A stretch of 34,908 nucleotides of DNA, taken from NCBI GenBank assembly GCA_947482555.1, contig CANKKB010000004.1:1-34908 (forward strand), written 5' to 3'. The notes beneath the pieces are model-generated. The model was not told the DNA's origin. It worked only from the letters and a program-made list of their open reading frames with translations, and searched no databases. The DNA is from Burkholderiaceae bacterium (GTDB lineage: Bacteria; Pseudomonadota; Gammaproteobacteria; Burkholderiales; Burkholderiaceae). Of this stretch, positions 10,394 through 31,380 are shown piece after piece (the first letter of the stretch is position 1; each line of letters begins with the position of its first letter). A program made the translations under genes and the position numbers.

Positions 10394-10440
10394 TTTTACT
10401 TTCTAGTGATCCCAATCGGACATGAACCTTGAAACACAAA
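10394..10440 (-). repeat. tRNA-3'-derived repeat, copy G (degenerate)
   Basis: CTAGTGATCCCAATCGGACATGAACCT matches 21/27 of copy E, with similar TTTACTTT flank. Confidence 0.5.
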
Positions 10441-10459
10441 CTTTGCTATTAAAAAGTAA

Positions 10460-11188
10460 TTAATTTTTTTGCTGAAAAATTTTCTCAGTTATCTGCAAAT
10501 GGGTAACGATATAGCAAACATCGCTTTTGTATGCGAAAGCCAATATCTTAACTTCAAACCATCTTTTTTCTTCTTTGCTATGGCAGGGATATTTAATCTT
10601 AAAACTTTTGCTATTGTCATAAATAACATCGCGAATAGATTTTGCTACTTTATGCGCTTCTTCTGAATCTGGCCCTCTAGCCTTGTCACAAAGCTCAAGA
10701 TAATTAATTCCCTCGCACCCTAGATTTCCATCTTTTAATTTTGGATAAACCATTGCGGCTGCCCGCCAAGCATTATTCACGAGAATAATAAAACCCCCTT
10801 TATCTAAGATTGCAGTCAAAGGCGAAACAAAGTTAATTGCAGCTTGTCCTAAACCCTCTATTTTTCTCAGCCTATAGGCTTCTAATTTTTTTATATCATC
10901 CCTGCTCTCAACTTCATTCTGTGGGTGCTCGATTTCCATGACGCTAGTTGCGAAAATAAAAGATGCGTCTAAGTTGAGCCAGCTAATTAAAGTTTTAAGT
11001 CTTGATGATTCAGGTAATGATTGTCCATTAATCCACTTTCTTGCAGATTCACGAGAAATTGAGTTTGACTGACTATTGCGAAAATTAAATTCAATCGCAA
11101 GCTTATTAGCTGTCGGTATTTCACCAAACCGATTTATTAACCCCGCTCTGAAGGCTAAAAGAAAACGTTCAATTACGAGTTGGTTAAT
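10460..11188 (-). CDS. Putative HTH + PAS-domain regulator, extended beyond the track ORF (10460-10939); start codon uncertain
   Basis: Frame stays open upstream of the ATG at 10939: INQLVIERFLLAFRAGLINRFGEIPTANKLAIEFNFRNSQSNSISRESARKWINGQSLPESSRLKTLISWLNLDASFIFATSV-MEIEHPQ...; no ATG/GTG/TTG in the extension, in-frame TAG at 11201-11203. Confidence 0.6.
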   Translation of the reverse strand: MNQLVIERFLLAFRAGLINRFGEIPTANKLAIEFNFRNSQSNSISRESARKWINGQSLPESSRLKTLISWLNLDASFIFATSVMEIEHPQNEVESRDDIKKLEAYRLRKIEGLGQAAINFVSPLTAILDKGGFIILVNNAWRAAAMVYPKLKDGNLGCEGINYLELCDKARGPDSEEAHKVAKSIRDVIYDNSKSFKIKYPCHSKEEKRWFEVKILAFAYKSDVCYIVTHLQITEKIFQQKN

Positions 11189-11242
11189 TTTATTTTCTCC
11201 CTACATGAGGCTAATCATTTCCTCTCCTCTCATCATGTTCCT

Positions 11243-11274
11243 TTAATAGGACTAAATCAGGTTAATTAATAGGA
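11243..11274. promoter_or_regulatory. Direct repeat TTAATAGGA x2 upstream of the HTH-PAS ORF (possible operator)
   Basis: 11243-11251 and 11266-11274, 23 bp start to start. Confidence 0.3.
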
Positions 11275-11486
11275 TTGATCTAATTTTTCTGATTTGCCAA
11301 CTTGAAGGTGGTATTTAATGATTAATTAAGACTAATTTATTCAGATATGAAGTACTTCTACCAAACAAAGAGAAAGCTTGGGGTAGCTATCCCAATCACG
11401 CAAATAACATGGTAAAGGAATAAGATCACCACCATAAAAAACTGCCAGTGCAAGAATCTTGGGTTTGCTAACCCATATAAAGCTCA

Positions 11487-12095
11487 ATGAATACACTAGT
11501 TGATATTTTTACAACAGACTGCATTGCGCTTAATTGTCCAGCTAGAACTAGAGCCGAATCTTTTAGCATTGCTGGGGATCTTTTTGAGAAAAAATTAGGG
11601 ATACCATCAAGTTCCGTAGTCCATTTTTTAAATACCCGTGAAGATTTAAGTTCTACTGCCCTGGGTTTCGGAGTCGCCATTCCCCATGGGACTGTTTCTG
11701 GAATTGACATGCCTGTTGCATGTTTTATAAAGTTAGCTGAAGCGATAGACTTTTATGCCCCAGATGGGATTAAGATCTCCATCCTAATCTTTTTATTGTT
11801 ACCAGAGAAGGCTGTTCAAGGACATATTCAAATTCTTTCGTCACTTGCACAACTGCTACTAGATAATGATCAACGCCAAAATTTATTATCAATACATGAG
11901 CCTGAGAAAATTTGTCAGCTACTTAACCTGGTGATAGACTTTAGTGAGATTCTGCAAACTCAAGACTTACAGAATAACTTTAAGCAATCTATTAAATCAA
12001 GCAATCAATATATTCTGAGCTATTTAGCTGAATGGGCAATTCTCGAAGTATCAAGAAAAAAAGATGGGGAAATAGTATCTTCTAGTAAGCGTTAG
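11487..12095 (+). CDS. PTS IIA (PtsN/nitrogen-type EIIA) domain protein
   Basis: FLNTREDLSSTALGFGVAIPHGTVSGIDMPVACFIKL...phospho-His context IPHG; fructose/ntr EIIA pattern. Confidence 0.85.
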   Translation: MNTLVDIFTTDCIALNCPARTRAESFSIAGDLFEKKLGIPSSSVVHFLNTREDLSSTALGFGVAIPHGTVSGIDMPVACFIKLAEAIDFYAPDGIKISILIFLLLPEKAVQGHIQILSSLAQLLLDNDQRQNLLSIHEPEKICQLLNLVIDFSEILQTQDLQNNFKQSIKSSNQYILSYLAEWAILEVSRKKDGEIVSSSKR

Positions 12096-12118
12096 TTTGC
12101 CTAATTAAATAGAATACA

Positions 12119-12160
12119 AGCTCACTAGGACGCCATCCTGAGACCAAAAAATTCTAGTTG
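12119..12160 (-). repeat. tRNA-3'-derived repeat, copy F (degenerate)
   Basis: GCTCACTAGGACGCCATCCTGAGACCAAAAAATTCTAG compared with GCCCGCCAGGACTTGACTCTGGGACCAAAGGATTCTC (copy B). Confidence 0.5.
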
Positions 12161-12225
12161 TGTAGCAAGCAAGTATCTATATGCTCCCATGAGTACGCTT
12201 TATATATTTTCCTTAACACCACAAG

Positions 12226-12741
12226 CAGCTAGCTCCTTTTAACACTGCACAAGATGCAACACAAACATCGCTTGCGGAGGCAGGGGACTATTCTGCGCTC
12301 GTTGCAATGCATATAATGGCCAATGAAATCTTGTAATGGACTATGGAAATTTTTTATTGGCAACCTGGTCCCGATGCCCCTATGCAGTTTCCAGGCAGCA
12401 AAATGTAAATGACTGATAGTGTTACTGGCCCCTACCGTAATTTTGCAACCTGCCAAGCATGGTCCAATACGAATTTAACGCCCTGCTTTAGTCCTTACCT
12501 AGAAACTTGCCCTGGAATTCCAGCTGCTACGACCAGTAATTGCATGTCATGTCATAACCTCGCAAGAATAGGTGGGCCGCCACTTTCAGGAATACCTAAC
12601 GGTGGCTTAAACTATCCTCTAAATTATTTAACGCCGACAACAACTAGCAGCTCTCTTTGGAGCAACCCTATATACACAAAGTTAGACGGTATGTGGTCCA
12701 TCAACCAAAATGCATTGCCCCCGGTAACAGTGCAGCAGTAA
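12226..12741 (+). pseudogene. Heme-motif (CMSCH) secreted protein, C-terminal part, decayed
   Basis: One frame reads LAPFNTAQDATQTSLAEAGDYSALVAMHIMANEIL*WTMEIFYWQPGPDAPMQFPGSKM*MTDSVTGPYRNFATCQAW...SNCMSCHNLARIG with two in-frame stops. Confidence 0.7.
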
Positions 12742-12782
12742 GATTTTAGAAAAAATATCGGTCCTAGAGTTGATGCTATTCG

Positions 12783-13625
12783 TTATTTACCCATCACAAA
12801 AGTAATTTGGGTTCGTGCACCCCATCCTCGGGGAGTACCAGGATATTGCAGAGTTTCAGGGTAACTGCTTACGTTGTAACGCGCACCAATTGAAAATTCA
12901 AAAGGTGTCTCCCCAATACGAATTACTTTTCCCACTGTGGCATTAATTGGGTTGTAGGTTCTGCGAACATCATAGTTATAGCTTGATTCGGTGTCTAAGG
13001 AGAAAACCCAAGCTCTCGGTGTTACATAAGATATAAAAGGCCAAAAAGAGAAAGTATTAGTTGTGGCAGTTCCTAGACTACTATTTGTTCCAGAGCCTAC
13101 TGGCCCTCCTAGACTCCATGATTGGTAAGTAAATAGCCCAAAAGTCCAAGGTTTAGGCATTGTTACAAATACCGCTCGTAAGCCGCCGCCCCATTGGGCA
13201 CTTCCATAATATCCACTTTGCCCTCCAGGAACTTGCAGGTAGGGGCCAATACCAAAAATAGTCTCTAGATCTGCTTTGGGTGTAAAAATCGTCTCAAATT
13301 GGGTTGGGCCAAGACCATAACTATTATTGCCATTGATATTTTGAAGTTTTGCGGCATTGATATATACGCGGGTAAGGGTTTTCCAATTTTCAGAAACATC
13401 AATTTTAATTTTCGGAGCAATTTGTAGGGTTTGATCTTTACCAGCATTGTTTAAGCCTAACCCGTGACTATGATTCCATTGAATATCAATTAACTGTAAA
13501 TTTGATAGTGGATTAGTTAACTCATAAGCAATATTTACATCACTTTTAGCGCTATTTTCTGCCCGAGCATTTAGACTAGTTATAGCAATTATAAAAAATG
13601 AAATAAAGTAAGCGAGATAATACAA
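12783..13625 (-). CDS. Outer-membrane beta-barrel / transporter-like protein
   Basis: Signal peptide, alternating barrel-like pattern, GPYLQVPGGQSGYYGSAQWGGGLRAVF. Confidence 0.65.
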   Translation of the reverse strand: MYYLAYFISFFIIAITSLNARAENSAKSDVNIAYELTNPLSNLQLIDIQWNHSHGLGLNNAGKDQTLQIAPKIKIDVSENWKTLTRVYINAAKLQNINGNNSYGLGPTQFETIFTPKADLETIFGIGPYLQVPGGQSGYYGSAQWGGGLRAVFVTMPKPWTFGLFTYQSWSLGGPVGSGTNSSLGTATTNTFSFWPFISYVTPRAWVFSLDTESSYNYDVRRTYNPINATVGKVIRIGETPFEFSIGARYNVSSYPETLQYPGTPRGWGARTQITFVMGK

Positions 13626-13724
13626 AGTGCAGAGTTTATTTTACTGTGGCGGCAAAAATATGCAAAGCTGATAAGAGGCTCAAAAGAATCAAAAGATGAC
13701 TAGTAAAAATTGAATTTAGTGCGA

Positions 13725-13749
13725 TTAAAAAACCACTCCATAGAGTGGT
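13725..13749 (-). terminator. Rho-independent terminator
   Basis: Minus-strand ACCACTC TATG GAGTGGT followed by TTTTTT, just downstream of the 13781-14578 gene. Confidence 0.8.
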
Positions 13750-13780
13750 ATTACATGAATTAAATAACTTATCTTGTAAC

Positions 13781-14578
13781 TTAAAATACATAGCCAACAC
13801 CCGCTAAGAATTGATAGGTATTGAGACTACTAAAATTAGGAACTATGGTTTTACTACCAGTAGCGCCAACGGCACTAGTTTGAACATAACTAGGAGCGCT
13901 ATAGCCCATGTAGCTGCCTTCGGCAAATCCATATAAACCACTCATAATCATTTGTTTGTAGCCTAATCCAACCAGGTAACCGCCTTGATTGGAGGAAGGA
14001 TTCTCGCCTGGTTTAGCTGGGGATGTAGTAGATAGCCCATTTAGCGTGTTGGTGAAAGATGTTGAACGGTTATATTGTGCAGTGACTTGACTGTAGCCTG
14101 CTTTAAGATAAACCAATTTATCTTTATCAATTGCATATGCTGGAGTGAGAAAGAGATTAAAGCGATTGGAGAGCTGTACGGTTTCACCATTACCGATTCT
14201 CGTTTCGCCAGCAACAAGCGAAGTATTACCCATAGCATTAGAAACAGTTTGAGAGATGTTAGAACTGGTTTGTGTTATTGCTGAATAATCAGCGCCCACA
14301 CCGATCAACCATTTCTCACTAACTTGCCAGTAATAACCCGCTCCAAAGACTAAGGGAGCTCCACCAAAGTTTTGACTGGGGCCACTTCCTTTAGTGTCCG
14401 TGTTAAGGTTGGGTGTATCTATGCTAGCACCACTGAAAGTACCCAATTGATTGCCTTCATAGCCAGTAGAGACCTGTCCATAAAACCCAGCAAAGGCACT
14501 TTGAGCCTGAACATTTGAACTACTAAAGCCAATCATCAGCAAAGAAGTCAATAGACTAAGCGTGAATTTGCATTTCAT
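13781..14578 (-). CDS. Outer-membrane beta-barrel protein (opacity/OmpA-like barrel)
   Basis: Signal peptide, glycine/aromatic-rich barrel pattern, C-terminal YVF. Confidence 0.75.
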   Translation of the reverse strand: MKCKFTLSLLTSLLMIGFSSSNVQAQSAFAGFYGQVSTGYEGNQLGTFSGASIDTPNLNTDTKGSGPSQNFGGAPLVFGAGYYWQVSEKWLIGVGADYSAITQTSSNISQTVSNAMGNTSLVAGETRIGNGETVQLSNRFNLFLTPAYAIDKDKLVYLKAGYSQVTAQYNRSTSFTNTLNGLSTTSPAKPGENPSSNQGGYLVGLGYKQMIMSGLYGFAEGSYMGYSAPSYVQTSAVGATGSKTIVPNFSSLNTYQFLAGVGYVF

Positions 14579-14758
14579 AAGCCACCCCTGTTAGATTGAA
14601 AAATACTTCACTATGAGTATTTCCAATCTCAGGCGATGCACTAGATATATCTAGTCGAAGGAATAAACTGGTTATAGAAACTATATTCCTATATATGCGT
14701 GAAGGGCCTGCTGGTATACCCTTGGTTAAGCAATGAATCGAGTATCGTTTCTCCCACA

Positions 14759-14779
14759 AGCGTTACTTAAAGTAACGCT
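14759..14779. promoter_or_regulatory. Perfect palindrome AGCGTTACTT-A-AAGTAACGCT
   Basis: 10-bp perfect arms, 1-nt centre, no T-tract on either side. Confidence 0.5.
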
Positions 14780-14823
14780 CAAAAGACAAAACCCCCAATA
14801 TCGCTAGTAAGGGTTTATTTTAC

Positions 14824-14899
14824 TGGTGGGCCCACCAGGACTTGCGCCTCAAAATAAAGGATTCTGCGTTGTGTCAGCATCCTAATTCCTTGAGCTATG
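14824..14899 (-). pseudogene. Degenerate tRNA(CAU)-like relic, copy A (near full length)
   Basis: TGGTGGGCCCACCAGGACTTG (CCA end, acceptor, T-arm) ... AAAGGATT ... TGAGCTATG (D-arm/5' end) in correct register; anticodon region scrambled. Confidence 0.65.
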
Positions 14900-15070
14900 T
14901 ATCAATCTGGGATGGAAAGTAATCTGAAGATGAAGAGTAATACTTATCATGCCTGTTTTAAGAGCAAAAGAAATGAAAATAATCTACTAAGTTTCGCTTC
15001 AAGCAGATTTAGGATTTTTTTATTAAACTTGGTCTATTGTCCCTATCCGAAATCATGAACTAAGCCCCCT

Positions 15071-15442
15071 ATGCCTAAAGAAGTTAATCTCAATGTTTTG
15101 GGACAGCCTCTCGTCCCCTGTTCATTTGATCCTTTAACTGGATTCTATCGAGATGGTTGCTGTAAAACCGATGAAAATGATCATGGTAGACATCTTGTCT
15201 GCGCGATTGTTACAAAGGCATTTTTGCAATTTAGTTTAGAAAAGGGTAATGATTTAATCACTCCCAGGCCCGAGTTTCAATTTCCGGGTCTAGTACCGGG
15301 AGATCAATGGTGTCTTTGTATTAGTCGGTGGGCTGAGGCACATGAAGCTGATTGTGCGCCTCAAGTTAAGTTAGAGAGTACCCATATTAGCGCCCTCGAA
15401 ACTATCTCTCTTCAAACGCTAGAGCAATTTGCAGTTGCTTAG
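15071..15442 (+). CDS. DUF2237 family protein
   Basis: NVLGQPLVPCSFDPLTGFYRDGCCKTDENDHGRHLVCAIVT...PGLVPGDQWCLCISRW. Confidence 0.92.
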   Translation: MPKEVNLNVLGQPLVPCSFDPLTGFYRDGCCKTDENDHGRHLVCAIVTKAFLQFSLEKGNDLITPRPEFQFPGLVPGDQWCLCISRWAEAHEADCAPQVKLESTHISALETISLQTLEQFAVA

Positions 15443-16341
15443 TGAAGGCGTTTTATACAGATCACTTTGTCTTGCCTTTGCCCGCTGGGCATCGATTTCC
15501 CATGGAAAAATATTCTCGTTTACGTGATCTAGTCGCAGCACTTCCAGAGGTGAAACTCCTTGAGGCTCCAAGCGCAACGGATACACAAATTCTATATGCC
15601 CATGATCCAGCTTATTTAATTAAGGTTCTTAAGGGTAATTTAAGTCCCGGAGAACAAAGAGAAATAGGTTTTCCTTGGAGCGAAAAAATGGTTGAGCGTT
15701 CACGCAGATCTGCCGGTGCTAGTGTTGCTGCTGCCAAAATAGCCTTTAACGAGGGAATCGCAGCTAATCTTGCTGGCGGTACACACCATGCCTATCGAGA
15801 TCAAGGAAGTGGTTTCTGCGTATTTAATGATGCTGCAATTACGGCTAGAACGTTACAAAAAGAAATTAATCCTAAATTAAAAATTGCAGTGATTGACTTA
15901 GATGTACATCAAGGTAATGGCACAGCCTCTATTTTAAAAAATGATCCTTCGATTTTCACCTTATCTATTCATGGCAAAAATAACTTTCCCTTCACTAAGG
16001 AGCAAAGTGATCTAGATATTGATTTGCCTGACGGTTGCGATGACCAAAATTATCTGCATGCCCTTGAAGCCGCTCTTGAAGAGCTCAATACGCGCTTTTC
16101 AGTAGATTTCATTATTTATCTGGCTGGCGCAGATCCACACGAGCATGATCGACTAGGCAAATTAAAACTAAGTAAAAATGGAATGCAAAGAAGAGATGAA
16201 ATGGTCTTTCAATATGCAAAGGAAGGCCAAATACCTTTGGCCCTCTCAATGGCAGGAGGGTATGGTAAAAATATTGAGACTACAGTTGAAATTCATTTTC
16301 AAACAGTTCAATCTGCCTTAAAATTTCAGCAACAATACTAG
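15442..16341 (+). CDS. Histone deacetylase family protein
   Basis: GGTHHAYRDQGSGFCVFNDAAITAR...VIDLDVHQGNGTA...LAGADPHEHDRLG; GTG start. Confidence 0.93.
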   Translation: MKAFYTDHFVLPLPAGHRFPMEKYSRLRDLVAALPEVKLLEAPSATDTQILYAHDPAYLIKVLKGNLSPGEQREIGFPWSEKMVERSRRSAGASVAAAKIAFNEGIAANLAGGTHHAYRDQGSGFCVFNDAAITARTLQKEINPKLKIAVIDLDVHQGNGTASILKNDPSIFTLSIHGKNNFPFTKEQSDLDIDLPDGCDDQNYLHALEAALEELNTRFSVDFIIYLAGADPHEHDRLGKLKLSKNGMQRRDEMVFQYAKEGQIPLALSMAGGYGKNIETTVEIHFQTVQSALKFQQQY

Positions 16342-16376
16342 TTGATTTAGCGATCCTGTCTCAGGCTCATCTTCGG

Positions 16377-16573
16377 CTATTTGTCGTAATCATTAGCAAA
16401 GTGGTGGTTTTTGTCACGATGATGCGCTTCATCATTACGTACAGCAATTACAAAATCCCGTAGGGTTGCGCTGGACTTAAAAAGGTATCTGCAAAAAAAC
16501 GCATGCCTTTAGTGAAAGCTAGTGCAACTCGATCAGAAAATTGAAGGGGTTTGTAGTGGTCAATCTGTTTCAT
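16377..16573 (-). pseudogene. Alternative oxidase (AOX) remnant, internally deleted
   Basis: MKQIDHYKPLQFSDRVALAFTKGMRFFADTFL (AOX N-terminus) joined out of frame to SATLRDFVIAVRNDEAHHRDKNHHFANDYDK* (AOX C-terminal di-iron segment). Confidence 0.8.
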
Positions 16574-16702
16574 AGAAAATACTTTAATTGATTTTTAGAT
16601 TTTATGCCCCAATGATAATTGGCAGCCATCACCTGCATTTAAGCAAGGGGCTCAGTCCTACATGGAGTAAAGCAATTTCTATTATGTAACTTTCTAAATA
16701 CT

Positions 16703-16891
16703 CTAGCTTGACTTGGTGGGATCAGTAGCGCTTGCTACTAGCGTTTTTTCGTCTTTGGGCTGGACTGGCATTACTTCCAAGCTTGGGGGTGCCATTTTGC
16801 TTCCATTCCATACCTGTCCACACCAGCATTCTCCTGCATCATTAATGATGCAAACACCTGAACCACAACACCGCTCATCTGACTTACTCAT
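16703..16891 (-). CDS. Small Cys-rich protein (CCGSGVC...CWCGQ)
   Basis: 62 aa ORF with conserved-looking Cys motif. Confidence 0.6.
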   Translation of the reverse strand: MSKSDERCCGSGVCIINDAGECWCGQVWNGSKMAPPSLEVMPVQPKDEKTLVASATDPTKSS

Positions 16892-16953
16892 TTTTTACTC
16901 CCAATCATTCAATTACTTTTATTTAATATTTGCTATCTAATGGTTTTTTTTCA

Positions 16954-16980
16954 AATATAGGGCTCATTGCAGCCTATATT
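16954..16980. other. Hairpin AATATAGG...CCTATATT
   Basis: 8-bp perfect arms, extendable with one bulge. Confidence 0.4.
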
Positions 16981-17085
16981 AAGTCCTTTTGAAAAATTTT
17001 GCTTACTGGTTTACAGCAAAGAATTTAATACCCATACTAGTTAATATCGTCCGTGCCATCGTAGAAACTAAGCAAATAGATTGGG

Positions 17086-17241
17086 CTACTTCTTGGGTAC
17101 TTTTTTTCGACAAGCAGCGGAGCAATACTTAATTGACTCCCAATTCTTTTCCCAAGATTTTCTCCAGGTCATTTCTTTTTTACAGACTACGCAAAACTTG
17201 CTCGGTAGATAGCTCTTATTACCCTTAAAAGAAGTGTTCAT
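17086..17241 (-). CDS. DUF2256 zinc-ribbon-like protein, 51 aa
   Basis: MNTSFKGNKSYLPSKFCVVCKKEMTWRKSWEKNWESIKYCSAACRKKVPKK; below track cutoff; immediately downstream of the photolyase. Confidence 0.85.
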   Translation of the reverse strand: MNTSFKGNKSYLPSKFCVVCKKEMTWRKSWEKNWESIKYCSAACRKKVPKK

Positions 17242-17248
17242 TTAAGCT

Positions 17249-21198: not shown

Positions 21199-21240
21199 AC
21201 TGGTGCGCCTAAGAGAGCTTGAACCTAACACGAAAGTAGT
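21199..21240 (-). repeat. tRNA-3'-derived repeat, copy H
   Basis: ACTGGTGCGCCTAAGAGAGCTTGAACCTA vs copy E ACTGGTGGGCCCAAGAGGACTTGAACCTA: 25/29. Confidence 0.6.
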
Positions 21241-21250
21241 TTTGGTATTT

Positions 21251-21311
21251 CTTGGAAGGCCCGCCAGGACTTGACTCTGGGACCAAAGGATTCTCTAGGG
21301 CTCACACCCTC
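21251..21311 (-). repeat. tRNA-3'-derived repeat, copy B
   Basis: TTGGAAGGCCCGCCAGGACTTGACTCTGGGACCAAAGGATT (T-arm, variable loop, start of anticodon stem). Confidence 0.7.
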
Positions 21312-21323
21312 TACAATATGTAA

Positions 21324-21869
21324 ATGTTGATACAAATCATAAACCTACTACTACAGGTATTCGTAAGTATTGTCGCCGGGGCCTGTCTTTTGCGTTGCTA
21401 TATCCAGTGGCTTGGTTCTAATCTTGGGGCTGGTCAAATTAAATCTATTGGGTCTTACTTATTCCCTCTAACCAATTGGATCATTCTGCCAATTCGCCGA
21501 ATTATCCCCAGCCTAGGTCGATTCGATACTGCTAGCTTTCTTGCTGCCTATGTTCTCGTTTTAGGCAAAACAATTATCTTATCTTGGATATCTGGGCTAT
21601 CACCTTTAACTTTATTCTCGCTGATTTTTACTGCGATTGAGCTTTTAGACTTATCCATTTCGGGCCTCATTGGGCTAGTTTTTGCAAGCGTCATTCTCTC
21701 TTGGATCAGTGCTGGCTCTCAAATCCAATACCTTATAGCTCTTTTAGTCGAACCACTTCTTAGACCCATTCGACGAGCAATACCCCATCTAGGCGCCCTT
21801 GACCTATCTCCAATTGTCTTATTATTGATTTTGCAAGTACTGCAGATTGTTTTAAGCAGTCTAAAGTAA
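21324..21869 (+). CDS. YggT family membrane protein
   Basis: Two YggT repeats (FPLTNWIILPIRRIIPSLGRFDTASF; VEPLLRPIRRAIPHLGALDLSPIV). Confidence 0.92.
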   Translation: MLIQIINLLLQVFVSIVAGACLLRCYIQWLGSNLGAGQIKSIGSYLFPLTNWIILPIRRIIPSLGRFDTASFLAAYVLVLGKTIILSWISGLSPLTLFSLIFTAIELLDLSISGLIGLVFASVILSWISAGSQIQYLIALLVEPLLRPIRRAIPHLGALDLSPIVLLLILQVLQIVLSSLK

Positions 21870-21900
21870 AAAAAATTCAACCCCTAGAGTTGGTATTGTG

Positions 21901-21965
21901 ATTCTTGATGAAGCCCAAGAGGACTTTAACCTGGGACCAAAGTATTCCGGTTTGTGTGCGTTTCC
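21901..21965 (-). repeat. tRNA-3'-derived repeat, copy C
   Basis: GAAGCCCAAGAGGACTTTAACCTGGGACCAAAGTATT. Confidence 0.7.
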
Positions 21966-21973
21966 TCGCGCTA

Positions 21974-22339
21974 TTAACTATCTTTAGCTATGTTGACACG
22001 ACTAATGATCCAGCAAGCTCCAGCAATTAAGATAATAGCCCCGCTCTCATAGATCAAAATTGCAGGATTCCCATCTTTACCCTGAAGGATAATTAATCTA
22101 CTCAATGCAGTCATGGCGATAAATAAAGGTATCGTTATTGGGATGCGGTGGCTAGCATAAAAGGCTGCTAGCATCCCCAGCACCTCTGCATAAATAAACA
22201 TCAGCAAAAGGTCCTGCAACTCTACACGACGACTACCAGTTAGGGAAATAATTTCTTGGACCATCGCTGCAATAGTAAAAAGAGCAATAATAATCAGGAA
22301 TAATTTTTCCACTAAACCAATGATATTTTTCACATTCAT
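21974..22339 (-). CDS. PsiE-family phosphate-starvation-inducible membrane protein
   Basis: VEKLFLIIIALFTI...ELQDLLLMFIYAEVLGMLAAFYASHRIPITIPLFIAMTALSR. Confidence 0.88.
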   Translation of the reverse strand: MNVKNIIGLVEKLFLIIIALFTIAAMVQEIISLTGSRRVELQDLLLMFIYAEVLGMLAAFYASHRIPITIPLFIAMTALSRLIILQGKDGNPAILIYESGAIILIAGACWIISRVNIAKDS

Positions 22340-22421
22340 ATGCTCACCTTTTTAATTTGAATTTCAGCTACGCAAACACATTAATATGTCTAAAAAAATA
22401 TTAGGGACATCTCTAGGTAAG

Positions 22422-22454
22422 AAAAACGACTTAGGAATTTCTCCCTAAGTCGTT
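22422..22454 (-). terminator. Rho-independent terminator
   Basis: Minus-strand AACGACTTAGG (8-nt loop) CCTAAGTCGTT then TTT; 11-bp perfect stem. Confidence 0.75.
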
Positions 22455-22462
22455 AATTTCAT

Positions 22463-22510
22463 TGCTGGGTCCAAGAGGACTGAAACCTGAGATCAAAGGA
22501 TGCACAATCC
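22463..22510 (-). repeat. tRNA-3'-derived repeat, copy D
   Basis: TGCTGGGTCCAAGAGGACTGAAACCTGAGATCAAAGGAT. Confidence 0.65.
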
Positions 22511-23070: not shown

Positions 23071-23256
23071 ATGAAACTGACCGTTTTTCGCTACAAAGTC
23101 TGGGATCATCAAGATGATAACCAAGCTCAAATACCCCCTTATTACGCTATTCGGGAATATATTGAGCAATTAGAGGGGGCATCTGTAATTGAAGATGACT
23201 ATTTAGAAGTAGATGAGTCTGATCTTGATGTTTTTGGAAGAATATCTACTATTTAG
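23071..23256 (+). CDS. Small acidic hypothetical protein
   Basis: 61 aa, ATG start, tight spacing to the next gene. Confidence 0.55.
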   Translation: MKLTVFRYKVWDHQDDNQAQIPPYYAIREYIEQLEGASVIEDDYLEVDESDLDVFGRISTI

Positions 23257-23265
23257 GCCTAAAAA

Positions 23266-23604
23266 ATGAAAGTCGCCATGCCAATAATTCGTGCAGTATC
23301 GTTGTTTACTTTTTTATTATTATTATCCCACCAGCTATTTGCTCAAGCAATCTCGAAGGACTATCAAAAAATTTGTATGCGCGAGCAAGTATCTGAACAT
23401 CAGGGTACTAAGGGGAAAGCGCTAACTGAAGATGACTTCACAACTTATTGCAGCTGCCAGGCTGAATACATTTCTCAAAATGCGACTAAGCAACAAGTAA
23501 ATGAACTACTGAAAAATCCAAAAGCTAAGCCCGAATGGTTAAAAGTGATTGAGTTAAAGGCCATGAAATCCTGCATTCCCTCCGACTCAAAGATGCGTAC
23601 TTAG
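23266..23604 (+). CDS. Hypothetical secreted protein
   Basis: Signal peptide, Cys-containing C-terminal region. Confidence 0.6.
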   Translation: MKVAMPIIRAVSLFTFLLLLSHQLFAQAISKDYQKICMREQVSEHQGTKGKALTEDDFTTYCSCQAEYISQNATKQQVNELLKNPKAKPEWLKVIELKAMKSCIPSDSKMRT

Positions 23605-23708
23605 TAATCTAGTATTCCTGCAACTGAATTAAGGTTACTGTACGTTAATAACAAATTGGTAATTTTGCTAAGGTCTTTATTCATTGAGTAATTAACCCTA
23701 TTTTCTCG

Positions 23709-24335
23709 ATGAATCAAAACTCCTTATTTAGAATTGATCCTGACCAATGTAGGCTAAATCTATTAGCCAAGGATGGGTCTGTTAACTACTATCCAGAATT
23801 TATAAGTGCGACAGACAGCGCTAAATTAATAGATAAACTGAAAGAGTCACTTCGATGGGAGGTAGATCAGCTCATCATGTTTGGGAAATTAGTATCAACA
23901 CGTCGTAAAGTAGTGTGGATAGGAGATCAGAATTGTGCTTATACCTACTCTGGAGTAAGCAAACAACCTCAAGCATGGACCCCAGAACTACTACTCATAA
24001 AAAATCAGCTAGAAAAACTTTCCGATTCAGTATTTAACTCTTGTCTACTCAATCTCTACCATGATGGTAAAGATGGAATGGGCTGGCATAGTGACAATGA
24101 AAAAGAGCTTGATACACAGTCTCCCATTGCCTCATTAAGCCTTGGTGCTAGCCGTAAATTTGCCTTCAGGCACAAGAAAGATAAAACAACTGCCTCCCTT
24201 ATCCTAGAAAATGGTAGCGCTCTCATCATGTATCCGCCCACTCAGAATTTTTGGCACCATGCATTACTAAAAACGAAAACCATTCATACATCTCGAATCA
24301 ATTTGACCTTTAGAAAAATTAATCACTCATCATGA
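23709..24335 (+). CDS. AlkB-like 2OG-Fe(II) dioxygenase
   Basis: NLYHDGKDGMGWHSDNEKELDTQSPIASLSLGASRKFAFRHK...TWRHHALLKT-like pattern (FWHHALLKTKTIHTSRINLTFR). Confidence 0.92.
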   Translation: MNQNSLFRIDPDQCRLNLLAKDGSVNYYPEFISATDSAKLIDKLKESLRWEVDQLIMFGKLVSTRRKVVWIGDQNCAYTYSGVSKQPQAWTPELLLIKNQLEKLSDSVFNSCLLNLYHDGKDGMGWHSDNEKELDTQSPIASLSLGASRKFAFRHKKDKTTASLILENGSALIMYPPTQNFWHHALLKTKTIHTSRINLTFRKINHSS

Positions 24336-25043
24336 GTAAAAACCAACCCAAAGGAACAAGTGTAGCCGTCATTGGCGCTGGTATTTCAGGGCTAAGCTGT
24401 GCAACTCAGTTAAAAGCACTGGGCTACCAAGAACAGCTCTACGAGAAAATTCGGGGGGGTCAGTGGTCGTATGAGTACTCGCAATGAAGATAATTGGTCG
24501 GTAGACCATGGAGCCCAGTATTCCTTCTATGAATTCACCTGGCAAATATTTAACTAAGAGCCTACCTATTGCCTTGAATCAAATAATTGATCAATTACCT
24601 ATCGCCAAGATAAATGGCACCTGCGCAGCCTAGAGAAGGGGGATATTGTGCAGCAATATGAATGGCTTGTTTTAGCGCTACCTGCACCACAATCTGTGGC
24701 TCTTGCTAAACCGATAGATAAATCAATTCAGAGGCTAGCTACCAAAGCGCATATGCAGGGCTGTTGGACAGTGATGGCAAGTTTTACCGAAAATTTAAAT
24801 CTACCCCTTGATGCCGCTTTTATCAATGATGAAATTATTAGCCTGATTTCTCGAAATAACTCTAAGCCAAAGCGTATGGGCCTAGAGAGTTGGATAATTC
24901 ATACCAATCTACCGTCCGGCTTTAGCCTCCAAGAGGATCTAAAAATAGGATTTTGTAGCGATTGGCTCAATGGAGGTAGAGTTGATGACGCTTGGCTCAG
25001 TGGTTATAAATTAGCCCCCCAGATTGAAAGTGTGAAAAATTAA
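24332..25043 (+). pseudogene. NAD(P)/FAD-dependent oxidoreductase (renalase-like), decayed
   Basis: MSKNQPKGTSVAVIGAGISGLSCATQLKALGYQEQLYEKIRG | frameshift at G7 | VSGRMSTRNEDNWSVDHGAQYSFYEFTW | loss | YEWLVLALPAPQSVALAKP...GFCSDWLNGGRVDDAWLSGYKLA. Confidence 0.85.
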
Positions 25044-25061
25044 ACTTATCGCGAAAATACC

Positions 25062-25445
25062 ATGACAACTAATGCATGTATTGAATTAAAAGATCTGAAG
25101 CTCCAGACCCAAATTGGAACATATGGACCTGGCGCAATAATTCCTAAGCAGCATCTATTAGATTTAACGCTTTGGATTGACCCAAAACTGGTCTTCATCT
25201 CAGAAGACGTCATGGAAAATGTATTTGACTATGATCCTCTGGTAATTGAAATTGATAGGCTAGCTGGAGACGGTCATTATGAAACCCAAGAAAGGCTAAT
25301 GACTCGAATAGTTCATGCTTGCGCACAATATCCTGAAATTGAATCAATGCAAATTAACCTGAGAAAAACTCCGGTTCATTCTGGCTCTGGCTCGCTTGGC
25401 GTTCGCCTCTCAGTAAATAAAACTATCTTAGATGGCTTGCGATGA
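25062..25445 (+). CDS. FolB-like dihydroneopterin aldolase
   Basis: IELKDLKLQTQIGTYGPGAIIPKQHLLDLTLWIDP...VFDYDPLVIEIDRLAGDGHYETQERLMTRI. Confidence 0.82.
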   Translation: MTTNACIELKDLKLQTQIGTYGPGAIIPKQHLLDLTLWIDPKLVFISEDVMENVFDYDPLVIEIDRLAGDGHYETQERLMTRIVHACAQYPEIESMQINLRKTPVHSGSGSLGVRLSVNKTILDGLR

Positions 25446-26089
25446 CCTTACTTCAAACTGAGGAGCTTGGTCGTCGAGTGTCTGCTGATCGCTGGCTGTT
25501 TCGGCATCTTAATATCTCCCTTGCCGCCGGTGAGCAACTTGCTCTTCAGGGTGCCTCTGGGGTGGGCAAATCGACGTTGCTCAATCTCTTGGCAGGTCTT
25601 GATCAGCCCGATGAGGGTCGGCTGCTCTTTGAGGGTAAAGATCTAAAAACAATGGGGGAAAATGAGCATCTCCATCTACGCCGAGTTGCCTTTGGATTTG
25701 TATTTCAGGCATTTCATTTAATGCCACATCTCAATGCTCTACAAAATGTGATGGTCCCATGTTTAATTGCTGGGCTTCCTCTTGACCAAGCAAAAGATCG
25801 TGCTAAGGGCCTTTTAAGCGCATTAGGTTTAGCAGCATCTTATGCGCAATTTCCGGCAGTCTTATCCGGCGGCGAGCAACAACGAATTGCCCTCGCGCGT
25901 GCCTTGGTCCATCATCCAAAAATCGTGCTCGCCGATGAGCCAACCGGTAACCTCGATCCGATTACTGCTGATCTTGCCTTAGAACTTCTGTGCAGTTCTT
26001 GTCGTGAGCACAATGCCGCCTTAGTAATGGTGACCCATTCAGAGAAAGCAGCTGAGCGCCTAGATCGTCGTTTAGTTTTAACAAACTAA
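25442..26089 (+). CDS. ABC transporter ATP-binding protein (LolD/MacB-like)
   Basis: Walker A GASGVGKST, signature LSGGEQQR, Walker B VLADEPTGNLD. Confidence 0.95.
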   Translation: MTLLQTEELGRRVSADRWLFRHLNISLAAGEQLALQGASGVGKSTLLNLLAGLDQPDEGRLLFEGKDLKTMGENEHLHLRRVAFGFVFQAFHLMPHLNALQNVMVPCLIAGLPLDQAKDRAKGLLSALGLAASYAQFPAVLSGGEQQRIALARALVHHPKIVLADEPTGNLDPITADLALELLCSSCREHNAALVMVTHSEKAAERLDRRLVLTN

Positions 26090-28644
26090 TGCTGTTTTAT
26101 TGGCTACTTTCATCTGCCTTTAAGGCGCAGCCGGGTCGTTGGTTTATAGCGGGTCTTGCAGTAGCTTTGGGTATTACACTTGCCGTCGCAATTCATACCG
26201 TAAATCGTTCAGCGCTAAGCGAGTTTAGTCGTGCCTTAGATCTAGTCAATGGCCAGGCATCTGCCCAAATCGTGATGCCTACCGGTGAATTCTCAGATCA
26301 GCTATACGACCAAATTGTTGCGCAACAAACTGAGCTAGGAATCCGCGCAGTCAGCCCAGTTTTAGAACGCAATACCGCACAAATTCGTGTTCTCGGAATT
26401 GATATTTTTCAGGCAGCCCGAGTATCACCTTCTCTGGTGCCTTTAGTTTCTGAAAATCAAGATCAAGATCAAGATCAAGATCAAGGATTATTTTCAGATG
26501 ATGCTATCTTTTTATCAGCCGCTGCCTTACAAAAGTTGCAATTATCAGTAGGCGACTCCTTGGCACTGGATTACGAAGGGAAGACCGTTCGATTTAAGAT
26601 TGCTGGTACGGTACCGGGCGCGATTGGTCAAGTTATTGCTGTGATGGACTTGGGTTTACTACAGTGGCGCCTTGGAGGCGTTGGTCGGATTAGCCGGCTA
26701 GATGTGCAACTTCTGAATGACAAAGGAATCGAGGAGGTAGCTAAGGCTGTTCAGAACCTCAATCTGGACCTACGTTTAATTAGTGCGCAAGAGCGCGATC
26801 GCCGTGCCTCCAATTTGTCGCGCGCATATCGTGTTAACTTAAATGTTTTAGCGCTCGTTGCCCTTTTTGCAGGCGCTTTTTTGGTCTTTACGACCATCAG
26901 TTTTTCGGTTCTGCGCCAACAATCCCAACTAGCACTTCTGAGTATTTTGGGTGCAAGTCTTCGCTGGATATTTTCATTGGTGCTTGCGCAAGCTGCTGTC
27001 ATCGCTGCTTTAGGAGGTCTGCTAGGTATTGGTCTGGGTCTTACTTTGGCCTTTGTTTTACTGAATATACTTGGCGGTGATTTAGGGGGAGGCTATTTCT
27101 CTGGCGCAGTGCCTCCCTTAGAAATTGATTACGTCGCACTTCTGGGCTTTTGGATCCTTGCTATTGCGGTGGGTTTATTGGCTGCGTATTTTCCAGCAAA
27201 AACTGCCACATCAAAACGCCCCACCGAGCTATTAAGATCTGGCTCTACTGAGCAGGTCTTGCGACCTGTAATGCATCATCGTGTTGCTCTTATTTTCAGC
27301 GTTGCCAGCCTAGTCTTAGCATTTATCCCCGCCATTAATGATCTTCCCCTCGCTGCATACGCTTCAATTGCATGTTTATTATTTGCAGGCTTAGCGCTTA
27401 TTCCATGGTTAGTTCAGCATTGCTTTTCAGCACTCGCTAATAGTTTGTCGCGCTGGCAAAAGCAGCCATCGTCTCTCATTTTTGCAATCTGGCGCTTAGC
27501 TCAAGCACCAGCTAGCGCTGCAGGATTAATTGCAGGTGTAGTTGCTGCTCTTGCCCTTACTGTAGCCATGGTGGTGATGGTTGCTAGTTTTCGAGACTCG
27601 ATGACCCAATGGCTTGACCAAGTATTGCCAGCAGATTTATATGCAAACTTTAAACAGTTAAAGCAAGACAATGAGTTTCTCAAAAACCCCAATCTATTAA
27701 AACGTATGGCGCAAGTTCCAGGTATTGAACGATATGAATTAAGCGTGCAACGTAAGATTCTGTTTCAGTCCGATCGACCCGAGGTCACTTTAATTGCTCG
27801 ACCAATCCAACAGGCTCGTGCAGCAGAAGCTCTACCCTTAATTGGTTCAGTCCATCCCCAAAACTCAACACCAAATCAGCCTGCCTTGCCAGTAGCCTAC
27901 GTATCTGAGGCGATGGTGGATTTATATGATTGGCGTCCCGGTGAAATTCATACCTTACCAGCCTTTAATGGGCAGCAGAACGCCCAAAAAGTCTGGATTG
28001 GAGGCATTTTTCGGGACTATGGTCGACAGCACGGTGCGCTAATCATCGATCTTGCTGCATACCAAAATATGAGTGGCGATCAACAGTATTCGGGTATCGC
28101 GATCTGGCTAGTCAATCAAGCAGATCCAACCACAGTACTTAATGCACTGCGTGTTGCAATTCCCCAGTTTCGTGATCAGGATTTTATTAATCGCAGTAGC
28201 CTACGAGCTCTCTCTTTGACGATTTTTGATCGTAGTTTTGCCTTGACTTATGCTCTAGAAGTCGCCGCTCTTTTAGTGGCACTGTTTGCAGTAGCGACAG
28301 GCTTTGCAGGTCAAGCATTGCTTCGACAGAAAGAATATGCCTTGGTGCATTACTTAGGCCAAACTAGCGCTCAACGCACAAGCTGGATTAGCGCCGAGTC
28401 AGGCCTTTTATTAGGATTAGCAGTTATTTGGGGAGCAATCTTAGGTTTATTAATGAGTCAGATATTAATCCACCGCGTTAACCCACAATCCTTTCATTGG
28501 ACAATGGACACAAGCGTGCCATATCTTGCACTAATTACACTCATGCTGGTCTTGGTTGGCTCAGGGATAGTAGCAGCCTTATGGGCTTCAAAGCGCAATT
28601 TAAATCGAGTAAATTTAATCACTGCATTACGAGAGGAGTGGTAA
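26089..28644 (+). CDS. FtsX-like ABC permease
   Basis: 851 aa, multi-TM FtsX/MacB-type; overlaps ATPase stop (TAATG). Confidence 0.93.
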   Translation: MLFYWLLSSAFKAQPGRWFIAGLAVALGITLAVAIHTVNRSALSEFSRALDLVNGQASAQIVMPTGEFSDQLYDQIVAQQTELGIRAVSPVLERNTAQIRVLGIDIFQAARVSPSLVPLVSENQDQDQDQDQGLFSDDAIFLSAAALQKLQLSVGDSLALDYEGKTVRFKIAGTVPGAIGQVIAVMDLGLLQWRLGGVGRISRLDVQLLNDKGIEEVAKAVQNLNLDLRLISAQERDRRASNLSRAYRVNLNVLALVALFAGAFLVFTTISFSVLRQQSQLALLSILGASLRWIFSLVLAQAAVIAALGGLLGIGLGLTLAFVLLNILGGDLGGGYFSGAVPPLEIDYVALLGFWILAIAVGLLAAYFPAKTATSKRPTELLRSGSTEQVLRPVMHHRVALIFSVASLVLAFIPAINDLPLAAYASIACLLFAGLALIPWLVQHCFSALANSLSRWQKQPSSLIFAIWRLAQAPASAAGLIAGVVAALALTVAMVVMVASFRDSMTQWLDQVLPADLYANFKQLKQDNEFLKNPNLLKRMAQVPGIERYELSVQRKILFQSDRPEVTLIARPIQQARAAEALPLIGSVHPQNSTPNQPALPVAYVSEAMVDLYDWRPGEIHTLPAFNGQQNAQKVWIGGIFRDYGRQHGALIIDLAAYQNMSGDQQYSGIAIWLVNQADPTTVLNALRVAIPQFRDQDFINRSSLRALSLTIFDRSFALTYALEVAALLVALFAVATGFAGQALLRQKEYALVHYLGQTSAQRTSWISAESGLLLGLAVIWGAILGLLMSQILIHRVNPQSFHWTMDTSVPYLALITLMLVLVGSGIVAALWASKRNLNRVNLITALREEW
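26456..26485 (+). repeat. Hexanucleotide tandem repeat (ATCAAG)x5 within the permease gene
   Basis: Encodes DQ repeats (NQDQDQDQDQG). Confidence 0.95.
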
Positions 28645-29753
28645 TGTACCAGTGTAATCGCCGATATTTTATGCAAGCACTACTCTTGTCAAACGCCCTC
28701 CCAGTTTCTCAATGGGCAAATTCTGCTTCAGTTGTCTATCCACCTGTTCGTTCCAGAGTGTTGGTATTCCCGAAAGATTATGGAGCACACCCAGAGTTTA
28801 GAACTGAGTGGTGGTATCTCACTGGCTGGCTTGGCTCAGGAGAAAATGTGATGGGATTTCAGATTACTTTCTTTCGCAGTCGTACTCAACATTCATCCGA
28901 TAACCCAAGTCGTTTTGCACCTACTCAACTCCTATTTGCACATGCCGCGTTAGCTATACCAGCAGAAGGTAAATTACGATATGCTGATGTTGCGGGACGA
29001 GTTGGGACTGCAGGCGCCACTTTCAATACCGCCGATACAAAATTATATTTAGCTAATTGGACGATGGAGAGAACTGATAATGATCGTTATCAGTTTTATA
29101 TACCAGCAGATACCTTTACGATACGTCTGGAAGCAATTCCCTCACAGGGTCCAGTTTTAAGGGGAGATCGGGGTTATTCTGCTAAAGGTCCGAGCCCAGA
29201 ACTCGCTAGCTATTATTACAGCCGTCCTCAGCTAGATGTCACAGCCCAAATTGAGATTAAAGAAAAATCGTTAAAAGCCAAGCAAGGCGATCTCATTAAG
29301 TACTCTGGAGTTGGCTGGTTAGATCATGAATGGTCGAGTAGCTTACTGATGCCTGGTGCAGTTGGATGGGATTGGATTGGAATCAATCTTCTCAATGGCG
29401 ATAGCATCATGGCCTTTCGGATAAGAGATCAGGCAGGTAAGACCTTGTTTAGTGAATGGGATCGACGTGATCAAAAAGGTCGAATCCTAGAGCGCCACTC
29501 AAGTGCTATTTGGGAAGCAGTAGGCCAATGGCGTTCGCCGCGATCTCTTGCAAATTATCCAAAAGGCTTTTTAATTCGAGTGGGCAATCAAGAGCTTCGA
29601 TTACAAACCCTGATAGAAGATCAAGAGGTAGATGCTCGCGCTAGTACGGGTGGGTTTTACTACGAAGGTGCGGTAGAAATGAGTCAGAATCAAGTTGTTA
29701 TTGGCCGTGGCTATCTTGAGCTAACTGGATATAGTCAAGCAGTGAAGTTATGA
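28644..29753 (+). CDS. Lipocalin-like AttH/CrtC-family protein, possible Tat signal
   Basis: FPKDYGAHPEFRTEWWYLTGWL...GVGWLDHEWSSSLL; N-terminal NRRYFMQALLL; start corrected to the ATG overlapping the permease stop. Confidence 0.88.
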   Translation: MYQCNRRYFMQALLLSNALPVSQWANSASVVYPPVRSRVLVFPKDYGAHPEFRTEWWYLTGWLGSGENVMGFQITFFRSRTQHSSDNPSRFAPTQLLFAHAALAIPAEGKLRYADVAGRVGTAGATFNTADTKLYLANWTMERTDNDRYQFYIPADTFTIRLEAIPSQGPVLRGDRGYSAKGPSPELASYYYSRPQLDVTAQIEIKEKSLKAKQGDLIKYSGVGWLDHEWSSSLLMPGAVGWDWIGINLLNGDSIMAFRIRDQAGKTLFSEWDRRDQKGRILERHSSAIWEAVGQWRSPRSLANYPKGFLIRVGNQELRLQTLIEDQEVDARASTGGFYYEGAVEMSQNQVVIGRGYLELTGYSQAVKL

Positions 29754-29798
29754 CAACTATCATGCTGCAACCAATGGTGAAGACTGAAAAGAAAGTAA

Positions 29799-30515
29799 AT
29801 GAACATTATTAGGATTATTAGCTTATTTACTTTATTGCTTGCTACTCATCTCACGCTGGCACAGCAGACTGCCACGCCAGGTTATATCTCGGTCCCAGCC
29901 AGCGCTGATGGCATCGGCAAGCGCTATATGGATCGTGAAATCTCAGGGGTGATGGGCTGGCAAGGTGCTGCATGGCTTGAGCGGGAGCAGAGGGAGCGCG
30001 AAGAACGTACGGATTTGTTACTAGATGCATTGGCTTTGCAACCAGGTATGGTTGTTGCTGACATTGGCGCCGGTACTGGCTACCTATCTCGTCGCATGGC
30101 ACCGCTTGTGATGCCAGGCGGAAAAATCATAGCGCTTGATTTACAGCCTGAAATGGTAAATTTTCTCCAGACTGGAATGAAACGTTTAGGGCTTTCGCAG
30201 ATCGAAGTAAAGCTGGGCACGGTCAACAATATTAAATTATCTAAAAACTCAATCGATATGGCCATTATGGTCGACGTATACCATGAACTATCCTACCCCT
30301 ATGAGGTAATGATTAGCATCATGCAAGCTCTCAAACCCCGTGGTCGCATCGTCTTCGTAGAATATAAAGCAGAAGATGCGCGCATACCAATTAAGTCCCT
30401 ACATAAAATGAGTGAGGCACAAATTAAGCGGGAAGCAGGTATTTTTGCCCTGGAATGGGAGCGGACTGTGAGTACACTACCATGGCAACATGTTGTAGTG
30501 TTCCGTAAACGATAA
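29799..30515 (+). CDS. SAM-dependent methyltransferase-fold protein with predicted signal peptide
   Basis: MNIIRIISLFTLLLATHLTLAQQ leader; VVADIGAGTGYLSRRMAP, IALDLQPEM. Confidence 0.88.
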   Translation: MNIIRIISLFTLLLATHLTLAQQTATPGYISVPASADGIGKRYMDREISGVMGWQGAAWLEREQREREERTDLLLDALALQPGMVVADIGAGTGYLSRRMAPLVMPGGKIIALDLQPEMVNFLQTGMKRLGLSQIEVKLGTVNNIKLSKNSIDMAIMVDVYHELSYPYEVMISIMQALKPRGRIVFVEYKAEDARIPIKSLHKMSEAQIKREAGIFALEWERTVSTLPWQHVVVFRKR

Positions 30516-30563
30516 TATTTACGACCTACCCTTACAGTCGCTACACCTTCTAAACATCGCTGC

Positions 30564-30677
30564 TTAATTTGACCAGAGATCAGCTAACCATCGTTTTAAT
30601 TCTTGAAACATAAGCACCAAGCCAACAAAGACTAGTAGAACGATAAATGCTGCAATTAATGATAAAGAATTATTCAT
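30564..30677 (-). CDS. Small single-TM protein, 37 aa
   Basis: MNNSLSLIAAFIVLLVFVGLVLMFQELKRWLADLWSN; below track cutoff. Confidence 0.5.
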   Translation of the reverse strand: MNNSLSLIAAFIVLLVFVGLVLMFQELKRWLADLWSN

Positions 30678-30697
30678 TAAGCTAAAAAGCTTTCGAA

Positions 30698-31174
30698 TTA
30701 ATTCTTTTTCATATTAAAAATATCAATTGAATCAACAGCATGAATCATGCCATTCGTAGCAATAATATTTTCGATTTTAATGCTCACCTGATTTACGCTC
30801 CGGCCACTCAAGTTAGATTCAATTAATAGATCATCGCCAGCCACGGAGGAATAGTGAGAATTATGAATTTTAGTTGAGGCAAACTCTGGAACAATAAAAT
30901 GATCAATGAAGTCGTTTAATTCCTCTGGATTAGATTCAAGTGACTGAAGATACTCCGGGGAGACTCTACTGAATGCAGTATCAGTTGGTATAAAAAGCGT
31001 AAAAAATCCACCGTTATCAAGCAACCTAAGCCATTCTGATTTTTTAATCAATTTTGTCCAGATTTTAAAAATTCCAGAGCTAATTGCGGTATCAATTAGC
31101 CCACATAAAACACAGCCTTCATAATGCTCATAGGTGCTCGTACTCATCTTTGGAACCTTATTGTTTTGCTGCAA
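30698..31174 (-). CDS. Fasciclin (FAS1) domain protein
   Basis: GGFFTLFIPTDTAFSRVSPEYLQSL...NIIATNGMIHAVDSI. Confidence 0.9.
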   Translation of the reverse strand: MQQNNKVPKMSTSTYEHYEGCVLCGLIDTAISSGIFKIWTKLIKKSEWLRLLDNGGFFTLFIPTDTAFSRVSPEYLQSLESNPEELNDFIDHFIVPEFASTKIHNSHYSSVAGDDLLIESNLSGRSVNQVSIKIENIIATNGMIHAVDSIDIFNMKKN

Positions 31175-31244
31175 ATCCAGTTAGAAATACATGGGTTTAA
31201 AGTGGTAAGGGAATACCCTTAATTAATATACGCTTTTTGGCGCA

Positions 31245-31308
31245 AAGCTGTGGAGAGGTGTAATTCCCCTATTAATAGAGTTGCTTTACCAATTGAACTG
31301 AGTTTCTC
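31245..31308 (-). pseudogene. Possible degenerate tRNA (D-arm clear; anticodon arm loosely tRNA-Asn-like)
   Basis: Minus strand: ACTCAGTTCAATTGGTAAAGCAACTCTATTAATAGGGG resembles GCTCAGTTGGTAGAGC..ACTGTTAAT. Confidence 0.4.
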
Positions 31309-31313
31309 AATTC

Positions 31314-31380
31314 TAGTGAGGGTTTACTTTACTGGTGGGCCCAAGAGGACTTGAACCTAGTTCTAGGGAATTGAATGGTA
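31314..31380 (-). repeat. tRNA-3'-derived repeat with flank, copy E
   Basis: CTAGTGAGGGTTTACTTTACTGGTGGGCCCA vs copy A CTAGTAAGGGTTTATTTTACTGGTGGGCCCA: 29/31; then AGAGGACTTGAACCT. Confidence 0.7.

Follow-up and report, generated by a model that had tools for sequence, protein, structure and literature searches.

The window analysed here is the whole of contig C4 (34,908 bp) of genome G000, an assembly of 205 contigs that is 78% complete and belongs to Polynucleobacter, a genus of freshwater betaproteobacteria; a cyanobacterial host, to which the analogy with Prochlorococcus might have pointed, was rejected. Between its larger open reading frames lie short fragments of a tRNA gene, which are listed below with the terminators and gene modules that accompany them.

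31333–31377, minus strand: copy E, tRNA-Ile2 3' fragment ending GTCCTCTTGGGCCCACCA (34–37 bits)
22463–22507, minus strand: copy D, 3' fragment, then a perfect intrinsic terminator (17–28 bits)
22425–22454, minus strand: terminator AACGACTTAGGGAGAAATTCCTAAGTCGTT behind copy D, 13-pair stem
21974–22507, unstranded: PsiE-family cassette of a single gene, flanked by copies C and D and shared with genome G001
21907–21968, minus strand: copy C, 3' fragment after the end of an Azoarcus-like group I intron (..GAAACGCACACAAACCGG joined to AATAC..; 32.6 bits)
21878–21892, minus strand: degenerate terminator behind copy C (CAACTCTAGGGGTTG plus a T run; class ACCAACTCTAGGGTTGGTATTTTTT)
21266–21876, unstranded: YGGT-family gene module between copies B and C (Pfam)
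21253–21297, minus strand: copy B, 3' fragment (CCTTTGGTCCCAGAGTCAAGTCCTGGCGGGCC; about 28 bits)
21201–21245, minus strand: copy H, a worn 3' fragment that follows copy B after 8 bp (10 bits)
14824–14903, minus strand: copy A, remnant of a whole tRNA-Ile2 from the D-arm CATAGCTCA to the CCA end (32–40 bits)
14761–14823, minus strand: terminator (ACCCTTACTAGCGATATTGGGGGTTTT) and island palindrome GAGCGTTACTTTAAGTAACG behind copy A
14610–14784, minus strand: cassette start behind copy A, 98% identical to positions 1–175 of contig C35 of G000
12110–12155, minus strand: copy F, doubtful 3' fragment (about 6 bits)
10394–10436, minus strand: copy G, doubtful 3' fragment, then a diverged ACTAACTCTGTGGTTGGTATT terminator (2.9 bits)

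The terminator of copy D is of the class found behind intact tRNA-Ile2 genes and behind the attR copies of congeners, and copy D itself has an orthologous fossil in G001 (C18:29341). On its lower-coordinate side copy E has a broken terminator behind it (AAACCCTCACTAG), and a G001 fragment at C18:38214 lies near the end of the synteny block that adjoins it. Copy C runs on into the 3' end of the group I intron; its tRNA end is worn, and the intron end was recognised by comparison with the intron-bearing spare tRNA genes described below. The YGGT-family gene is found elsewhere in genomes G050 (C13) and G001 (C12).

Source, orientation and synteny of the fragments

The fragments were scored with a profile of the tRNA-Ile2 3' half that was made without any window copy. 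The scores for copies E, C, A, B, D and H were 34.2, 32.6, 32.3, 28.6, 17.0 and 10.0 bits, respectively, while 200 dinucleotide shuffles of the window returned 0.015 matches per window at 10 bits or more and 0 at 15 bits or more. Six of the eight repeats named in the original prediction (A–E and H) were found above this shuffled control, most of them far above it. Copies F (6.2 bits) and G (2.9 bits) were indistinguishable from noise in the profile search of the window and are not convincing as true copies; copy G gains slight support from a diverged version, behind it, of one of the terminators that follow good copies. The single orientation that had been described was confirmed: all real window copies are on the minus strand, and the orientation is uniform on 23 of 23 contigs of G000 and its congeners that carry at least two copies (≥20 bits). 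The composite 32-mer core proposed for the repeats was absent from the window at three or fewer mismatches, because wear differs from copy to copy.

The tRNA whose 3' half the fragments match reads GGGCCCATAGCTCAGTTGGTTAGAGCAGAGGACTCATAATCCTTTGGTCCCAGGTTCAAGTCCTGGTGGGCCCACCA; a CAU anticodon had been proposed for it. ARAGORN calls all three CAU tRNAs of G000 Met; since the two others are the elongator Met and initiator fMet tRNAs, the third, and with it the source of the repeats, is taken to be tRNA-Ile2(CAU). The extension of copy A to the D-arm was also correct, with an alignment over most of the tRNA. Further copies are present in G000 on contigs C1, C9, C31, C50 and C156, and 48 of 61 Polynucleobacter genomes contain at least one match to the 18-nt 3' end of the tRNA. 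In the congeners, the tRNA-Ile2 gene directly follows rpoD, with C-terminal RpoD codons reaching the tRNA (RpoD was identified by eye, not via a family search). In the window, neither ARAGORN nor Rfam called a tRNA, and nothing relevant appeared with Rfam at E ≤ 10. The stated lack of an integrase agrees with the open reading frame list, with the Pfam results for 20 proteins of the window and with genome-wide integrase searches.

Between 16.5 and 31 kb the window is collinear with G001, its closest relative (about 93%), with mainly one exception, a region of difference bounded by copy C (window position 21,968) and by a G001 fragment (27,166). Among G000, G001 and G050, 28 of 102 internal synteny ends fall within 60 bp of a fragment, compared with an expectation of 4.0 ± 2.9 (maximum 14) when fragment positions were rotated 500 times; because both sides of a block enter the count, the ends are not all independent. 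The expected link between copies and breakpoints in gene content was therefore found.

Junctions and elements in complete congeners

Every CTCATAA in 20 congeners was sorted by its two flanks. This census gave 14 junctions of a left arm with a tRNA 3' half, 9 intact tRNA genes, 7 junctions of a tRNA 5' half with a right arm and 3 of a left arm with a right arm, so that attB, attL, attR and attP-type junctions are all represented. The common core at every junction is the 7-nt CTCATAA of the tRNA-Ile2 anticodon loop. At attL, the broken host 5' half and CTCATAA are followed by the right arm (GAAAGAAGCCC...), with no tRNA sequence past the loop; at attR, a left arm ending ...TCTGCT is joined to the displaced host 3' half. 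The finding of all four types supports the suggestion of serial tRNA-targeted insertion. Inverted repeats (TTACACACCGA / GGTGTGTAGTAAAT and similar) are present in the arms, a feature expected of the arm sites of an integrase.

Behind the right arm, about 230 bp inside attL, lies a second and complete tRNA-Ile2 gene. The alternative idea, that a family of elements spreads its own target site, is in part correct as well, since the elements bring this whole spare gene and not merely a 3' half. In most genomes the spare gene is split after the anticodon by a group I intron of ~210 nt, which is Azoarcus-like and reaches the Rfam gathering score (RF00028); it is intronless in G014, G058, G072 and G098. 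The intron-bearing gene is the sole full-length match among those listed in at least 15 of 54 genomes, usually with a broken 5' half adjoining it, and from this we regard the spare tRNA as presumably a functional and required gene. It is followed by an intrinsic terminator, often with the palindrome GCGTTACTTTAAGTAACGC. The palindrome also occurs around integrase genes and element ends, and within G000 it is confined to fragment-bearing contigs and to C35.

It was considered whether the intron protects the gene from re-insertion, an idea that is weakened by two junctions that contradict it. In P. sinensis L111 a left arm is joined to CTCATAG-CGAAAG-intron, and in G007, at position 173312, a left arm is followed by CTCATAA and then by CGAAAG-intron. 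Insertion at intron-bearing copies thus seems to occur.

A protein of ~450 aa encoded behind the spare tRNA, where this was checked, matches a PHROG integrase family (E = 4e-32). The Pfam integrase model missed it at its cut-off, and a PDB sequence search with it returned nothing informative. The protein is 95–97% identical in G007, G014, G016, G031, G047, G076, G081 and G110, and truncated remnants are present in G012 and, as a C-terminal piece, in G001. Divergent integrases accompany different right arms (G026 and G076, 40%; G075 and G062, 66%). The integrase elements also carry a recombinase of ~190 aa (PF00589) and several shared proteins with no assigned function.

Ordering the junctions along the arrays gave 22 intervals that end in a left arm. 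Each of the five that carry the integrase is preceded by a right arm and a spare tRNA; for G014 the interval was counted from the intronless spare gene, 225 bp past the right-arm junction. The seven elements that start with the R2 arm (CTCATAACCAGAGAACCTAAAC) are 1.5 to 23.7 kb long and lack an integrase in every case, and they end in the same left arms as the integrase-bearing elements. One and the same nitrate assimilation block with an NMT1-like protein and a nitrite reductase is carried by an integrase element in G047 and by an R2 element in G012.

Within the family, 12 of 40 genomes from Polynucleobacter and 0 of 260 from elsewhere have the R1 arm. The viral contigs, phages and plasmids searched yielded no record that carries it. 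The same collections gave no relatives of the elements, whose genes were sampled in part; as candidate sources they were rejected, the matches being only chance or ordinary tRNA.

Contig C35 of G000 contains a junction of left arm, CTCATAA and right arm from which the spare tRNA has been deleted, followed by the 175 bp with 98% identity to the region behind copy A. This identity ties the window to the element family. With neither an integrase nor an intact arm, the window is best described as an eroded array.

Origin of the array

The copies in the window are very probably fossil attachment junctions of integrative elements that target tRNA-Ile2. An element with a tyrosine integrase of ~450 aa would enter the CTCATAA anticodon loop of tRNA-Ile2(CAU) downstream of rpoD, leaving the host 5' half at attL beside its right arm and displacing the host 3' half and terminator to attR behind its left arm. 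The complete tRNA-Ile2 carried by the element, usually with its group I intron, would then replace the broken host gene. Subsequent elements, among them cargo elements that lack an integrase and share the left arm, could enter an intact or an occupied CTCATAA, so that 3' halves of the same orientation would accumulate downstream, with or without intron ends. In the lineage of the window, integrases and arms would have decayed, with the 3' halves and terminators remaining between blocks of one to several genes.

Comparison of the genomes establishes the anatomy of the junctions, the spare tRNA with its intron, the shared arms and the synteny breaks at the copies. We infer from these that the integrase catalyses the insertions, that the events took place in this order, that the spare tRNA functions and that cargo may be mobilised in trans. 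No circular form, no pair of empty and occupied strains and no excision was seen among the genomes compared.

A more specific proposal, which we put forward tentatively and rate a little below an even chance, is a two-tier, integron-like system on tRNA-Ile2. Autonomous elements with an integrase and an intron-bearing spare gene would break the host gene, and R2-start cargo elements, free of both integrase and tRNA and sharing the left arm, would enter only an occupied CTCATAA. An essential tRNA locus would in this way be turned into a growing cassette array shared among Polynucleobacter species.

Some observations count against the main reading: the window has neither arm nor integrase; G000 (78% complete), G001 and G050, the genomes richest in copies, contain no intact 450-aa integrase; and many short blocks (0.6–2 kb) fall below the size of the intact elements observed. 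The array must therefore also owe its form to deletion or to homologous recombination from copy to copy. It is somewhat unlikely that RecA recombination on the tRNA 3' halves and terminators was the main process that grew and shuffled it after one or a few founding insertions. The small blocks fit that explanation, as do single-gene modules bounded by copies at both ends. So does the gene content of G050 and G001, which have the most copies yet only two PF00589 matches each, ranked with the XerC/XerD-like matches of all congeners, and no intact 450-aa integrase. However, the fresh junctions of the congeners have 7 nt in common, which is too little for RecA, and an integrase and arms exist in the congeners and diverge together.

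We also regard it as unlikely that the copies were retained as terminators for the preceding gene, with selection acting on the array as insulated gene cassettes. A stop codon does precede copies C, D and E at a distance of no more than about 25 bp, and D, A and in part C have kept their terminators, but those of E and H have been lost, and the origin of the copies would be left unexplained. A self-spreading short repeat, such as a tRNA-derived SINE- or REP-like element, would account for many copies that each have a terminator and often the conserved palindrome behind them, but it is highly improbable given the single orientation, the clustering near one locus, the absence of a copying module, the presence of element arms or intron at the left boundaries, and the occurrence of the palindrome at integrase genes and element ends.

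Such integration at tRNA-Ile2 would explain the build-up of accessory genes at one locus in a streamlined, abundant freshwater bacterium. The rpoD–tRNA-Ile2 locus and its CTCATAA junctions may serve as a simple search rule for cassettes, including nitrate assimilation cargo. The genomes in which an intron-bearing gene is the sole full-length match listed may be natural cases where a self-splicing intron from a mobile element seems to be needed for an essential tRNA.

Relation to known integration systems

Integration of the tRNA-dependent kind is already known; the variant found here adds an intron-bearing spare gene and cargo elements that share arms. The closest precedent appears to be the tRNA-dependent lysogeny of mycobacteriophage Fionnbharth and others (PMC10865867), and the closest island analogue the tycheposons of Prochlorococcus. 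The phage system and the present one both use a tyrosine integrase and arm-type repeats flanking the core, both have a very short core inside a tRNA gene (here 7 nt), so that the host tRNA is not rebuilt, and in both the element brings along an entire tRNA gene of matching isotype. The Polynucleobacter islands differ in having no recognised virion genes in the parts examined, in the position of the spare tRNA ~230 bp inside attL and its usual group I intron, and in their tandem arrays, integrase-free elements with shared arms and betaproteobacterial hosts. They would thereby extend tRNA-dependent integration from phages to cargo islands.

Islands in tRNA genes catalogued by Islander (PMC4383910) likewise leave displaced 3' fragments in the orientation of the tRNA, occur in tandem and include a class with the crossover centred on the anticodon. 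The integrase gene typical of such islands is present in the Polynucleobacter congeners and absent from the window. Islander islands restore the tRNA from junction sequence, whereas the Polynucleobacter attL does not. Tandems of three or more were rare under the stricter rules used there (4 cases in 2168 genomes), in contrast with the 4–12 copies of several Polynucleobacter arrays.

Tycheposons are known in Prochlorococcus and Methylophilaceae, and as described in PMC10872708 they resemble the present elements in a tRNA at the border, a tyrosine recombinase (here in congeners) and large cargo that includes nitrate assimilation genes, such as the nitrite reductase and NMT1-like transporter of G047. 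The additive flexible islands of Ca. Methylopumilus carry 20-bp repeats of tRNA-Lys (PMC10872708), which are also partial tRNA repeats recurring along an island of freshwater plankton; the tRNA is different and the repeat is shorter than that of Polynucleobacter. An intron-bearing spare gene with arm-sharing cargo elements is not described in the parts of PMC10865867 and PMC10872708 that were consulted, and an account of Polynucleobacter islands (PMC5644125) mentions neither tRNA nor integrase.

The arrays are somewhat like those of integrons in being built of cassettes. Integrons have an IntI integrase with attI and folded attC sites; in Polynucleobacter each site is instead a tRNA half whose core is 7 nt long. 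The Azoarcus-type group I intron of tRNA-Ile(CAU) has in common with it the tRNA, the insertion point after the anticodon and a very similar 3' part. The Polynucleobacter intron differs in travelling within a mobile spare gene.

Second insert and second boundary class

The tRNA-Ile2 gene is also found split after AGAGGACT by a second, different insert of approximately 280 bp that ends ..GGCAGTGAAAACTGTAGTGGTAAG. Present in both the genome under study (G000) and its congener G050, this insert has the appearance of a further group I intron, although Rfam returned no match for it. It is located at:

G000:C31:1-189
G000:C50:5030
G050:C14:17716-18020

Another class of left boundary, ATCAAAC.TCCTA.A..CCAGG|CTCAAG, lies closer to the T-arm and was perhaps generated by a different integrase with crossover in the T-loop. 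The positions are:

G050_C14 1899
G050_C14 8448
G050_C16 2816
G000_C1 36704

Exceptions in position and orientation

The tRNA-Ile2 3' half at G017:C1:394968 departs from the general rule: approximately 760 kb separate it from the tRNA gene, and it is oriented the opposite way. In G040 (C1:342000-347000), the tRNA copy is flanked 5' by a recombinase-bearing element rather than by rpoD, and this suggests that the copy itself was targeted or moved.

Other genes and repeats

A 189-aa tyrosine recombinase (G000:C5:30137-30706) is distant from all of the tRNA copies seen in this analysis; its convergent neighbor encodes a 244-aa protein similar to one from the tRNA-Ile2 elements. The element of G031 carries a SAM-I/IV riboswitch close to the integrase gene (L313:930-1027). 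Within the window, the gene for a kelch-like repeat protein (6850-7971) contains repeated 147-bp units, and the ChrR-type double cupin gene adjoining copy E, a worn tRNA 3' half, has an internal duplication (31402-31452 and 31714-31764).
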